Below are positions 29,366-33,426 of a stretch of DNA of 33,426 nucleotides, one piece after another; within the stretch, counting starts at the first letter, position 1, and each line of letters starts with the position of its first letter. The position numbers were made by a program, and so were the translations under genes. Below the pieces are notes generated by a model. It saw only the letters and a program-made list of their open reading frames with translations, ran no database searches and had not been told where the DNA came from. Source of the DNA: Acetobacteraceae bacterium (GTDB lineage: Bacteria > Pseudomonadota > Alphaproteobacteria > Acetobacterales > Acetobacteraceae); assembly GCA_019750465.1 (NCBI GenBank), contig JAIEOP010000457.1:1-33426 (forward strand), read 5' to 3'.

Positions 29366-29641
29366 TCAAGGCTTGCCGCCGCTCTCGCCCTCGATCACCG
29401 GCGGCCGCGGCGCCGCCGCCCAGAGCCGCCGATAGACATCGAGCGGCAGCAGCACGAAGGCCTCCCGGCCATGCCGGGTGAGCACCAGGGGGCTGCGCAG
29501 CGCCGCCTCGACGAAGCTCGGGATGACGTTCTCGACGCGGTCGATGTCGGTGCGCGGCATGCCTTCGAGGCCCGGCGCCGGATCGGCCGGCGCGGCGGTC
29601 GCGATCGCCTCGTCGCCGGTCGTGTTCCTGCCCCGCGCCAT
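29366..29641 (-). CDS. Phd/YefM-like antitoxin, no partner toxin
   Basis: 91 residues. The centre, DRVENVIPSFVEAALRSPLVLTRHGREAFVLLPLDVYRRLW (about 33-73), looks like the Phd/YefM fold, in which a helix is followed by p-hv-x-hv-T-k-hG-x-x-hhvl and eeYxrL. A short Ala/Gly-rich N-terminal extension and C-terminal tail are unremarkable. Known family members repress their own operon and neutralise RelE- or Doc-type toxins, but no toxin reading frame lies on either side: uup follows 34 bp downstream. It could be a solitary DNA-binding regulator. Assignment rests on a short motif. Confidence 0.6.
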   Translation of the reverse strand: MARGRNTTGDEAIATAAPADPAPGLEGMPRTDIDRVENVIPSFVEAALRSPLVLTRHGREAFVLLPLDVYRRLWAAAPRPPVIEGESGGKP

Positions 29642-29731: not shown

Positions 29732-29807
29732 CTAAGCAGGCTTTCATGGCTTGGCCCACACATCGTGTGGTCCAAGCCATTGTAGCGAAAGCCTGCTTAG
29801 GTTTTTT
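29732..29807 (+). terminator. Large 29-bp-stem hairpin followed by T6
   Basis: Three stacked perfect arms: CTAAGCAGGCTTTC (29732-29745) with its complement at 29787-29800; ATGGCTTGG (29746-29754) with CCAAGCCAT (29772-29780); and CCACAC (29756-29761) with GTGTGG (29765-29770), closed by an ATC loop. A 6-base bulge lies on the right side (29781-29786), and one unpaired base on each side of the inner stem. GTTTTTTG follows at once, the form of an intrinsic terminator for plus-strand transcription. No plus-strand gene lies upstream, so it may be an attenuator for the lipoprotein gene or a palindromic repeat. Confidence 0.65.
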
Positions 29808-29841
29808 GTCGGGCGCAAACCTCCAGAGGTTTGCTTAGGTT
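29794..29841 (+). repeat. Direct repeat bracketing a second hairpin
   Basis: TGCTTAGGTT occurs at 29794-29803 and again at 29832-29841. Between them is the hairpin GCAAACCTC/GAGGTTTGC (29815-29834) with a 2-base loop. AGGTTT at 29799-29804 can also pair with AAACCT at 29817-29822, which would compete with that hairpin. Confidence 0.6.
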
Positions 29842-29939: not shown

Positions 29940-30938
29940 ATGTCAAGCCGCAGCCATCGGGCCATCGCCGCCGTCACCGCCGCCGCCCTGCTGGCCGGCT
30001 GCGTCACCACCCGCGGCCAGCGCATCGGCGCCGATGACGGCATGGATGCCTGCCGTGCTCAGCTCGTGGCGCTCGACTCCACCGGCGACTTCTTCGCCGA
30101 GGACATCCTGAAGGGCGCGGCGGCCGGCGCGCTGGCCGGCGCGCTGATTGGCGGTCTCGCCACCGGCCGCTGGCAGGGCGCGCTGATCGGCGCCGGCGCC
30201 GGCCTCGCCGCCGGCGCGGCCACCGGCTACCTCGTGGCGTTGCAGCAGCGCAGCGCCGACCAGGCGGCGCTGAATGCCAGCCTCTCCTCCGACCTGGCGC
30301 GCGAGAACGCCCAGCTCGACCGCACGCAGGTGGCCTTCGACCAGCTCATGGAATGCCGCTTCAACCGCGCCCAGCAGGTCCGCGAGGCCTACCGCGCCGG
30401 CCGCCTGCCGCAGGGCGTGGCCGAGGCGCAGATGGCCGATGTCCGCGCCCGGGCGCAGCGCGACATCGCGCTGGCCCGCACCATCAGCGAGCGCATCGGC
30501 ACCCGCGGCGCCGAGTTCGACACCGCCATCGAGACCGTCGCCCCCGGCACCAAGAACAGCGTGCTCGCCGGCAAGTCCGGCGCGGCGACCGTCAGCACCC
30601 GCACCGCGGCCGTGGTGCCGCTGCGGCTGCGGCCCGACCCGGGCTCGCCGATCATCGGCAGCGTGCCGGCGCAGCAGGCGGTGCAGGTCCGCCCCGCCAC
30701 CGGCGGCTTCGCGCAGGTGCAGGCGGCCGGCGGGCGCGTCGGCTATGCCGAGGCCTCGGCCTTCCGCGGCACGCCGGCGGCGCGCGCCTCCGGCGGCATC
30801 GACCCGGCGACCATGGGGACGAGTGGCGGTGACGTCCGCACCCTCGCCGCCTCCAACATCGCCCGACGCGAGAATTTCACCGACGCCGTCGCAACGGCCG
30901 AGCGCGCCTCCTCCAGCGGCTTCGAGCTGGCGAGTTGA
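29940..30938 (+). CDS. Glycine-zipper lipoprotein with SH3-like C-terminal region
   Basis: 332 residues. The signal peptide ends in lipobox LLAGC (Cys21, Val at +2), so an outer-membrane lipoprotein is likely. Residues about 58-90 form a glycine zipper (GAAAGALAGALIGGLATG... GALIGAGAGLAAGAATGYL), a membrane-inserting or oligomerising motif. A helical, probably coiled-coil region (about 95-185) follows. Then comes a segment resembling a bacterial SH3 domain (VVPLRLRPDPGSPIIGSVPAQQAVQV, about 222-247, then GGRVGYAEASAF). The ATG at 29940 gives a proper signal peptide. Its stop overlaps the TTG start of the WD40-caspase gene. Specific function unknown; envelope anchoring of its partner is an inference. 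Confidence 0.87.
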   Translation: MSSRSHRAIAAVTAAALLAGCVTTRGQRIGADDGMDACRAQLVALDSTGDFFAEDILKGAAAGALAGALIGGLATGRWQGALIGAGAGLAAGAATGYLVALQQRSADQAALNASLSSDLARENAQLDRTQVAFDQLMECRFNRAQQVREAYRAGRLPQGVAEAQMADVRARAQRDIALARTISERIGTRGAEFDTAIETVAPGTKNSVLAGKSGAATVSTRTAAVVPLRLRPDPGSPIIGSVPAQQAVQVRPATGGFAQVQAAGGRVGYAEASAFRGTPAARASGGIDPATMGTSGGDVRTLAASNIARRENFTDAVATAERASSSGFELAS

Positions 30939-33426
30939 GCCGCGGGCGGGACGCCGCCGCGCGGGGCGCCGCCCCGCGCCCCGGTGCCCGCCTGGCGCGG
31001 GCCGCCCTCGGGCTTGTGCTCCTCGTCGCGGCGGGGCTTGGCCTCGCCGCGCCTCTTCTTGCCCAGGCACCGCCTGCCGGCCCGTCGCCCAACCCATCGC
31101 GCGGCATCATCCCGATCCAGCCGCCGGAGCCGCAGCGCCCGCCGGCGGGGCGCATCGCCGAACCACCGCAGGCGCCGATCCTGCGGGTGGAGGCCGGCAC
31201 GCATATCGCGCCGGTCCGCCGCCTCGCCCTCGATTCCGCCGGCCGGCTGCTGGCGACCGTGTCGGACGACAAGACGCTCCGGCTCTGGTCGCTGCCGGAT
31301 GGCGGGGCGCGCGGCGTGCTGCGCCCCCCGATCGGCGCCGAGCAGGAGGGCGAGCTCTACGCCGTGGCGCTGAGCCCGGACGGCGCCCGCGCCTTCGCCG
31401 CCGGCTACACCGCGCGCAGCTGGGACGGCAGCTTCGCCATCTATGTGTTCGACACCGCCACCGGCCGCCTGGCCGCGCTGCTCGGCGGCCTGCCCGCGCC
31501 GGTGCTCGATCTCGCCATCTCGCCGGAGGGCGACCGCCTGGCCGCGGGCTTCGCCGGCCGTGGCGGCGTGCGGGTCTGGGATGCGCGCAGCGGCCGCCCC
31601 GTCTGGGAGGACATGGCGCCGGGCAGCTACGGCGGCGCGGTGCGCGGCCTGGCCTTCGATGTGCGCCAGGGCCGGCTGGCCGTGACCGCGGCCGATGGGC
31701 GGGTCCGCGTCTACGACAATGCCGGGCGCAAGGTCGCGGAGCGGGTGCCGCAGGCGGGGGCGCGGCCCTATGGCCTGGCCTTCTCGCCGGATGGCACGCT
31801 GCTCGCGGTCGGGTACGAGGACAGGCTGCGGGTCGACCTGCTCGCCGCGTCCGACCTGCGCACCGTCTTCGCCCCCGACGTCTCCGGCCTCGCCGGGGAA
31901 GGGCTGCCGGCGGTGGGCTGGGCGGCGGACGGGCAGGGCGGGGTGCAGCTGCATGCCGGCGGCTACGCGCGCTCCGGCGTCGCCCGCTCGGGCGAGGCGG
32001 CGCCGCGCAGCTTCGTCATCCGGCGCTGGGTCGATTTCGGCCTGGGTCCGAGCACGGACATCCCCGCGGCACGCGATGCCATCGGCCAGATCCTGGCCGT
32101 GCCGGGCGGTGGCCTGGTCTACGCCGCGGCGGATCCGGGCTGGGGCCGGGTCGCGCCCGATGGCAGCCTGGCTCGCGCGCCGACGCCGGCGGCGCTGGAG
32201 CCACGCGCGGTCGGGCGGTCCCTGGCGATTTCGCCGGAGGGCACGCGGCTGCGCTTCAGCAGCGACGCGCGGACCCTGGTCTTCGATGCCGGCATCGGCC
32301 GCCTCTCGCCTGCGGAGATCGATGCCGGGGGCTTGTTCCTGTCGCCCCGCACCACCGGCGCGCGGGTGCCGATCCAGGATTGGCGCGACACCAACCGCCC
32401 ACGGCTCGGCCAGGCGGCGCTGCGGCTCGATGCGGGGGAGTTCTCGCGCAGCCTGGCGCTGCTGCCGCGCGACGAGGGCTTCGTGCTCGGCACCGATACG
32501 CATCTGCGGGTCTTCGACATGGCCGGGCGCCAACTCGACTCCGTGGCGCTGCCGGCCATCGCCTGGGGCGTGGCGGTGGCGGAGAACGGCGTGGTCGCGG
32601 CGGCGCTCGGCGACGGCACGCTGCGCTGGTTCGGGCCCGGGCCGGCCGGCGGCAGGCTGGAGGAGCGCGCGGCGCTCTTCGTCCATGCCGATGCCCGGCG
32701 CTGGGTTGCCTGGACGCCCGAAGGACTGTTCGACCATGCCCCGGAGGGTGGGCAGGAGCTGGTCGGCGTCCACCTCAACCGCGGCCGCGCCCAGACCCCC
32801 GAATGGGCGAGCTTCCGCCAGGCCTACCGCGCGCTCTTCGCGCCGGCCGAGCTGCGCGCCCGGCTGACCGGCGATGCGGCGCCGGCCGGGGCGCGGATCG
32901 CGGCGCTCGGCGACATGCGCGAGGCGATCGGGCGGCTGCCGGTGGTGGCCGCGCGCTCCGCCTGCGCCGTGCTGGCCGGGGGCGAATGCCGCAGCGTCGC
33001 GCTGGCGCCGGCCATCACCGTGCCGCCGGAAAGCACGGGCCTGCGCCTGACCCTCAGCGCGGAGGATCGCGGCCTTGGCCTCGGGCCGGTGGATGCGCTG
33101 GTGAACGACCGCATCGCCGCGCGCGGCGCCCCGCCGGCGCTGAAGGATGCGCCGGCGACGACTCGCGGCGCGCTGGGCGAGGTGGTGCTGGAGGTGCCGC
33201 TCGACCCCGGGCCGAACCGCATCAGCACGCGCCTCTATGCCGAGGACCGCGTGCTGTTCGCCGAGGGGCCGAGCTTCGAGCTGCGGCGCGAGGGCGAGCG
33301 CGCGCCGCCGGTGGATACGGGCCGGCTGCTGGTGCTCGCCGTCGGCGTGGACCGCTACGCCAACCGCAGCCTCGACCTGCGCTTCGCGGTGGCGGATGCG
33401 CGCACCGTGGCGGAGACGCTGCGCCG
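30935..33426 (+). CDS. Exported WD40-repeat protein with C-terminal caspase-like domain (partial)
   Basis: 830 residues are visible and the frame runs off the window. The only credible start is TTG at 30935, overlapping the upstream stop (TTGA): it yields an Arg-rich N-terminus, a hydrophobic core (about 23-42) and an AQA cleavage site at 43-45. No in-frame ATG provides a signal peptide. A Pro-rich linker leads to WD40-type blades from about residue 95 (VSDDKTLRLW at 109-118, GVRVWDARSGR, GRVRVYDNAGR, LRVFDMAGR). Residues about 588-620 (WVAWTPEGLFDHAPEGGQELVG) are a module common in WD40-caspase proteins. A beta-rich segment follows, then LLVLAVGVDRYANRSLDLRFAVADARTV from about 797 begins a peptidase C14 domain. 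Its catalytic His and Cys lie beyond the window, so activity is unproven. Confidence 0.85.
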   Translation, partial: MSRGRDAAARGAAPRPGARLARAALGLVLLVAAGLGLAAPLLAQAPPAGPSPNPSRGIIPIQPPEPQRPPAGRIAEPPQAPILRVEAGTHIAPVRRLALDSAGRLLATVSDDKTLRLWSLPDGGARGVLRPPIGAEQEGELYAVALSPDGARAFAAGYTARSWDGSFAIYVFDTATGRLAALLGGLPAPVLDLAISPEGDRLAAGFAGRGGVRVWDARSGRPVWEDMAPGSYGGAVRGLAFDVRQGRLAVTAADGRVRVYDNAGRKVAERVPQAGARPYGLAFSPDGTLLAVGYEDRLRVDLLAASDLRTVFAPDVSGLAGEGLPAVGWAADGQGGVQLHAGGYARSGVARSGEAAPRSFVIRRWVDFGLGPSTDIPAARDAIGQILAVPGGGLVYAAADPGWGRVAPDGSLARAPTPAALEPRAVGRSLAISPEGTRLRFSSDARTLVFDAGIGRLSPAEIDAGGLFLSPRTTGARVPIQDWRDTNRPRLGQAALRLDAGEFSRSLALLPRDEGFVLGTDTHLRVFDMAGRQLDSVALPAIAWGVAVAENGVVAAALGDGTLRWFGPGPAGGRLEERAALFVHADARRWVAWTPEGLFDHAPEGGQELVGVHLNRGRAQTPEWASFRQAYRALFAPAELRARLTGDAAPAGARIAALGDMREAIGRLPVVAARSACAVLAGGECRSVALAPAITVPPESTGLRLTLSAEDRGLGLGPVDALVNDRIAARGAPPALKDAPATTRGALGEVVLEVPLDPGPNRISTRLYAEDRVLFAEGPSFELRREGERAPPVDTGRLLVLAVGVDRYANRSLDLRFAVADARTVAETLR

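Follow-up and report, generated by a model that had tools for sequence, protein, structure and literature searches.

In Pseudomonas aeruginosa, the lipoprotein TagQ brings the periplasmic protein TagR to the outer membrane, and activation of PpkA requires TagR (PMC6657622, PMC6565705). Even in Pseudomonas, little is understood of the signal that switches on the TagQRST–PpkA pathway (PMC6565705). Here we describe a gene pair from an Acetobacteraceae bacterium in which a TagQ-like anchor is coupled to an exported caspase, a real and conserved variant of the TagQ–partner envelope module. The window, by which we mean the whole stretch of 33,426 nucleotides that was analysed, is the entire contig C491, one of 522 contigs in the genome assembly.

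The lipoprotein gene (29940..30938, forward strand) runs from an ATG at 29940 to a TGA stop at 30936–30938 and encodes 332 amino acids. The WD40-caspase gene follows on the same strand (30935..33426) as an open frame cut by the contig end, with 830 amino acids in view. Both open reading frames were confirmed at the coordinates given by the sequence-only reading, as was the TTGA overlap that it described (30935..30938, forward strand), in which the TTG start of the second gene meets the TGA stop of the first. That reading also held that the TTG restores a signal peptide, and TTG 30935 is indeed the sole ATG, GTG or TTG start that keeps the N terminus of the WD40-caspase intact; its position is conserved in relatives. 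In the sister species (L010), the junction is a GTGA overlap and the WD40-caspase has its own signal peptide. A fixed ratio of the two products, as further proposed, is suggested by the coupling, but Pseudomonas TagQ is ~60-fold more abundant than TagR (PMC6565705).

A palindromic element of ~107 bp with nested inverted repeats (29732–29838) lies approximately 100 bp 5′ of the lipoprotein gene; it has ~40 copies in the same genome at 79–100% identity and is a REP- or MITE-like interspersed repeat. On the reverse strand, a small divergent open reading frame (29366–29641) resembles a Phd/YefM-type antitoxin (LVLTRHGREAFVLLPLDVYRRL); it adjoins an ABC-F gene, and in the sister species (L207) it likewise accompanies the pair.

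The lipoprotein begins with a signal peptide and an LLAGC lipobox that leads to the lipidated Cys21 (29940..30002, forward strand, as are all features of the pair given below). A glycine-zipper helical hairpin covers residues 58–104 (30111..30251), followed by the long helical pair of a TagQ-like core (residues 108–200, 30261..30539; pLDDT ~85–95 in the AlphaFold2 model) and a bacterial SH3 domain (residues 218–273, 30591..30758). The zipper and the SH3 domain, both noted by the sequence-only reading, have Pfam matches above cut-off: Gly-zipper_YMGG at residues 58–97 (30.6 bits, cut-off 28.9) and SH3_3 at residues 226–273 (29.8 bits, cut-off 27). In the AlphaFold2 model as a whole (pLDDT 80), the zipper hairpin and the two long helices precede an SH3 barrel, and a helix closes the C terminus. 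Foldseek matches to the whole lipoprotein fell on the SH3 domain only; the best matches of this domain, which also identify it by predicted fold, are the SH3 domains of NlpC/P60 proteins and endolysins (probability ~1.00, E 0.005 or worse). With few exceptions, intact orthologues have exactly three cysteines, namely the lipobox cysteine and the invariant Cys38 (30051..30053) and Cys139 (30354..30356), which align with the first and second conserved periplasmic cysteines of TagQ. Cys38 and Cys139 probably form a disulfide in the periplasm. Divergent lipoproteins (L019–L021, L038) are without the SH3 domain. One orthologue has lost the lipobox cysteine (WGP in L005, G005:C95), with the rest conserved, and in another genome the TagQ-like gene is tandemly duplicated ahead of the WD40-caspase gene (G138:C10:90556-92866).

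A search for TagQ across Alphaproteobacteria returned mainly zipper-only or OmpA-type lipoproteins, so we tested homology with true Pseudomonas TagQ instead. An hhalign comparison of the Pseudomonas TagQ profile with the lipoprotein family gave a probability of 99.0% across 182 columns and brought both cysteines into register. The NCBIfam TagQ model (NF041250) matches residues 5–176 of the window lipoprotein at 47.9 bits (E 1e-12), far below the curated cut-off of 300 bits, with Pseudomonas TagQ scoring >500 bits; a distant member of the family reaches 67.5 bits. BLASTP of the window lipoprotein against one TagQ gave a weak match (E 0.065). The lipoprotein has the TagQ traits of lipobox, glycine zipper, helical core and two conserved cysteines. 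On profile comparison, then, it is homologous to TagQ, which anchors the T6SS sensor TagQR to the outer membrane; by the curated cut-off it is not TagQ, its partner is not TagR, and whether it works in a TagQR-like manner is a separate claim.

The partner protein starts with a Sec-type signal peptide (approximately residues 1–44, 30935..31066), in which an n-region, a hydrophobic core and an AQA-like cleavage site can be discerned by eye. Tandem WD40 beta-propellers follow (31160..32610), as indicated by Pfam WD40, a model of the relative L016 and Foldseek matches to tandem propellers. These matches are mostly double propellers, including Apaf-1, and are uninformative on the caspase. Alignment with relatives places the first 33 residues of a caspase p20 at 33328..33426. 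PF00656 scores above cut-off in L016 (residues 757–947), L019, L038 and L022, and complete relatives are about 950–1130 amino acids long. Because the contig stops after the first 33 residues of the C14 domain, the histidine and cysteine of the window protein lie beyond view, and a search of its own assembly with the C terminus of the sister species found no continuation. The catalytic dyad on which the sequence-only reading had made its proposal depend could thus be followed in relatives only: a DTC cysteine motif occurs in 22 of 22 full-length proteins and an obvious GHG or SHG histidine motif in 21 of 22, and the dyad is present in the sister species (L010). An invariant pair, Cys677/Cys685, would fit a periplasmic disulfide. 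The same genome also has a second, smaller exported caspase gene without WD40 repeats (L001, G000:C493:27460-28131; C14 145 bits), and the WD40-caspase of Thiohalocapsa (L034:5467-8529) bears an N-terminal PDZ domain.

We compared two sets of loci, one taken from named genomes (Roseococcus, Plastoroseomonas and MAGs) and one from 200 sampled Acetobacteraceae genomes, and found the lipoprotein gene directly 5′ of the WD40-caspase gene in loci of both. Both genes occur in 43 of the 200 sampled genomes. At 25 of 30 inspected WD40-caspase junctions, the next start lies −1 to +10 nt from the first base of the stop codon, where −1 is an NTGA overlap and +2 a TGATG overlap. The count of 58 was made at a threshold of E 1e-8, and weak TagQ-like matches in small Acetobacter-type genomes (~1e-9) were not taken as strong evidence. 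Chance pairing is ruled out because the adjacency is conserved. The sequence-only reading of a coupled pair in the envelope, with signal peptide, SH3 domain and caspase, is supported; of the outcomes named there as refuting it, unconserved adjacency and an alternative start without the signal peptide did not occur.

Other genes were seen in the neighbourhood of such pairs. A second caspase gene lies 3′ of the pair in six loci, identified by Pfam C14 in L162, L176 and L177 and by a sequence motif in L019, L020 and L021, and a CHASE2-guanylate/adenylate cyclase gene lies two genes past the pair in L166. In another group of WD40-caspases (L024, L025 and L030, from Bradyrhizobium, Azospirillum and Neoroseomonas), the upstream gene encodes another kind of small exported protein, marked by a WPDAI..L..ER..A..C motif, which seems to be a second conserved partner; the one example searched with Pfam had no match.

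In Pseudomonas and several Alphaproteobacteria, TagQ-like genes adjoin a gene for an FGE-sulfatase protein, which is TagR-like (L165, L167, L168, L171, L199 and L205), with ABC transporter genes in one case. In other genomes, some outside the class, the TagQ-like gene adjoins a WD40-caspase gene with 4-nt overlaps (L162, L177, L192 and L193). No tagR (FGE-sulfatase) neighbour was found in the window, where the adjoining gene is that of the WD40-caspase. As TagQ-like genes adjoin either a TagR-like or a WD40-caspase gene, the WD40-caspase holds the partner position of TagR.

The pair is also associated with T6SS. TssC, present in 100 of the 200 family genomes, occurs in 40 of the 43 with both genes versus 60 of the 157 others (Fisher 4e-11, a test that ignores phylogeny). 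By genus, in a tally compiled by hand from tables, all 23 genera with a strong pair have a T6SS versus 63 of 102 overall (hypergeometric 2e-6, again ignoring phylogeny). Three TssC-negative genomes have both genes. One of them, the nearly complete G057, has in-frame stops in both genes, and two of its congeners have a T6SS and intact pairs; the other two (G174 and G178) are divergent, incomplete genomes. Sixty T6SS-positive genomes are without the pair. Divergent lipoprotein/WD40-caspase pairs occur in TssC-negative genomes (G254, G373, G431, G174 and G178), followed in some cases by a CHASE2-cyclase gene or another caspase gene; T6SS is therefore not required for the pair as such, and the module can work without it.

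Physical linkage varies. Roseococcus pinisoli, genus g56 (G056, G135 and G186) and G206 have the pair within a T6SS cluster or next to one, where its neighbours include genes for VgrG, DUF6931, PAAR, Fha, TssK, TssL, TssM, TagF and a PppA-like PP2C phosphatase. For G135 the linkage is indicated by a neighbouring VgrG gene and by TssC 18 kb away, and in G186 the T6SS cluster is flanked by two Ser/Thr kinase genes. No T6SS genes adjoin the pair in the window or in its genus, the sister species included, nor in Plastoroseomonas; elsewhere in the genome from which the window comes, C462 carries a T6SS cluster that includes TagF and PppA-like genes, and C494 carries a relative of Fha. Related WD40-caspases with no recognised TagQ-like partner also have neighbours of this kind, namely TssK among other T6SS genes in Thiohalocapsa (L034) and a vgrG in a Rhodocyclaceae MAG (L036).

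We hypothesize that the pair forms an outer-membrane-anchored periplasmic caspase that serves the T6SS as a TagQR-like envelope sensor with a putative proteolytic step, a reading to which we give about an even chance. A lipid anchor and the zipper hairpin would hold the lipoprotein at the outer membrane, the Cys38–Cys139 disulfide would probably staple its helical core, and its SH3 domain may touch peptidoglycan. The Sec-exported partner, in which two WD40 propellers and an Ig-like region are combined with a caspase protease at the C terminus, would be recruited by the lipoprotein, presumably through direct binding, to the outer membrane on its periplasmic side, and in its Acetobacteraceae form the module would most likely serve the T6SS in place of the TagQ–TagR of Pseudomonas. 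An envelope disturbance might then be sensed and lead the caspase to cut a periplasmic target, and this cut could switch PpkA/Fha/PppA or another T6SS control step in one direction or the other. More tentatively, the caspase may be the envelope switch of the T6SS, held by the lipoprotein, with regulated proteolysis replacing TagR and either triggering or restraining firing.

Such an anchored caspase might instead have a general role in quality control of the envelope or in stress signalling; it would then coincide with T6SS through shared ancestry and genome size in the Roseomonas-like branch of the family. This is possible, if less probable than service to the T6SS: divergent pairs occur where T6SS is absent, some with the cyclase or second secreted caspase gene downstream, and the pair is unlinked to T6SS genes in the window and in several relatives, but at least two genera have it within their T6SS clusters, it is decayed in the T6SS-negative G057, and its lipoprotein is homologous to a T6SS lipoprotein, TagQ. 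Vicinity to the T6SS could also be that of cargo, with the WD40-caspase as a delivered toxin and the lipoprotein as its periplasmic immunity protein. In Roseococcus and g56, vgrG and PAAR genes lie directly 3′ of the pair, as would suit an effector–immunity pair; against this, nearly all relatives of the caspase have a Sec signal peptide, unlike effectors loaded in the cytoplasm, the pair persists away from vgrG, and the TagQ-like lipoprotein is well conserved, which typical immunity proteins are not. We regard such a role as very improbable.

A suicide or defence module, in which breach of the envelope by phage or T6SS attack frees or activates the caspase so that the cell dies or incoming proteins are cleaved, is somewhat less remote, although unlikely. 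Caspase-fold effectors and WD40 sensors are known from conflict systems (see also PMC7159879), and a generic 'caspase' profile of PADLOC matched (E 3e-14). No defined PADLOC anti-phage system was matched, however, and this generic profile was the sole PADLOC match to either protein; neither NACHT nor TIR nor any other known partner of defence systems was found, the protein is exported to the periplasm, and one lipoprotein is stably adjacent across genera, which is not the mobility of a defence island. Service to the T6SS remains the reading that we prefer.

Our literature search on T6SS together with caspase and WD40 or with TagQ found no description of the pair, and neither the pair nor T6SS is mentioned in the available portions of a survey of orthocaspases (PMC3501461). 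The sequence-only reading, which knew of no described function for the pair, missed the TagQ homology and the T6SS association, and these turn that statement into a testable link. Should the T6SS reading be correct, a second lineage in which a WD40-sensor protease has taken the position of TagR would offer a new handle on how the T6SS senses attack, and periplasmic bacterial caspases, about whose roles little is known, would gain a concrete pathway and a partner.

Each part of the module has relatives in described systems. Its SH3_3 domain is like the wall-binding domains of NlpC/P60 peptidases and endolysins, in profile score above cut-off and in predicted fold, but here it sits on a lipoprotein of the outer membrane that has no wall hydrolase domain. 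The partner is like prokaryotic caspase homologues, or orthocaspases (Peptidase_C14, PF00656), in combining WD40 repeats with a C14 domain that has the His–Cys motif in relatives, and signal-peptide-bearing orthocaspases were noted in the survey by Asplund-Samuelsson et al. 2012 (PMC3501461). It differs from WD40-type orthocaspases in that a double propeller precedes the caspase, export is clear and a TagQ-like lipoprotein is coupled to it. A further comparison is with TagQ–TagR. Like TagQ of the P. aeruginosa H1-T6SS, the lipoprotein has a lipobox, a glycine zipper, a long helical core and two aligned cysteines, and, like TagQ with TagR, it is genetically partnered with an exported soluble protein, in a T6SS context in part of the family. 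In contrast to TagQ–TagR, the partner is a WD40-caspase rather than the FGE-sulfatase protein TagR, an SH3 domain has been added, no TagS or TagT genes stand beside the pair, and the lipoprotein gene comes first.
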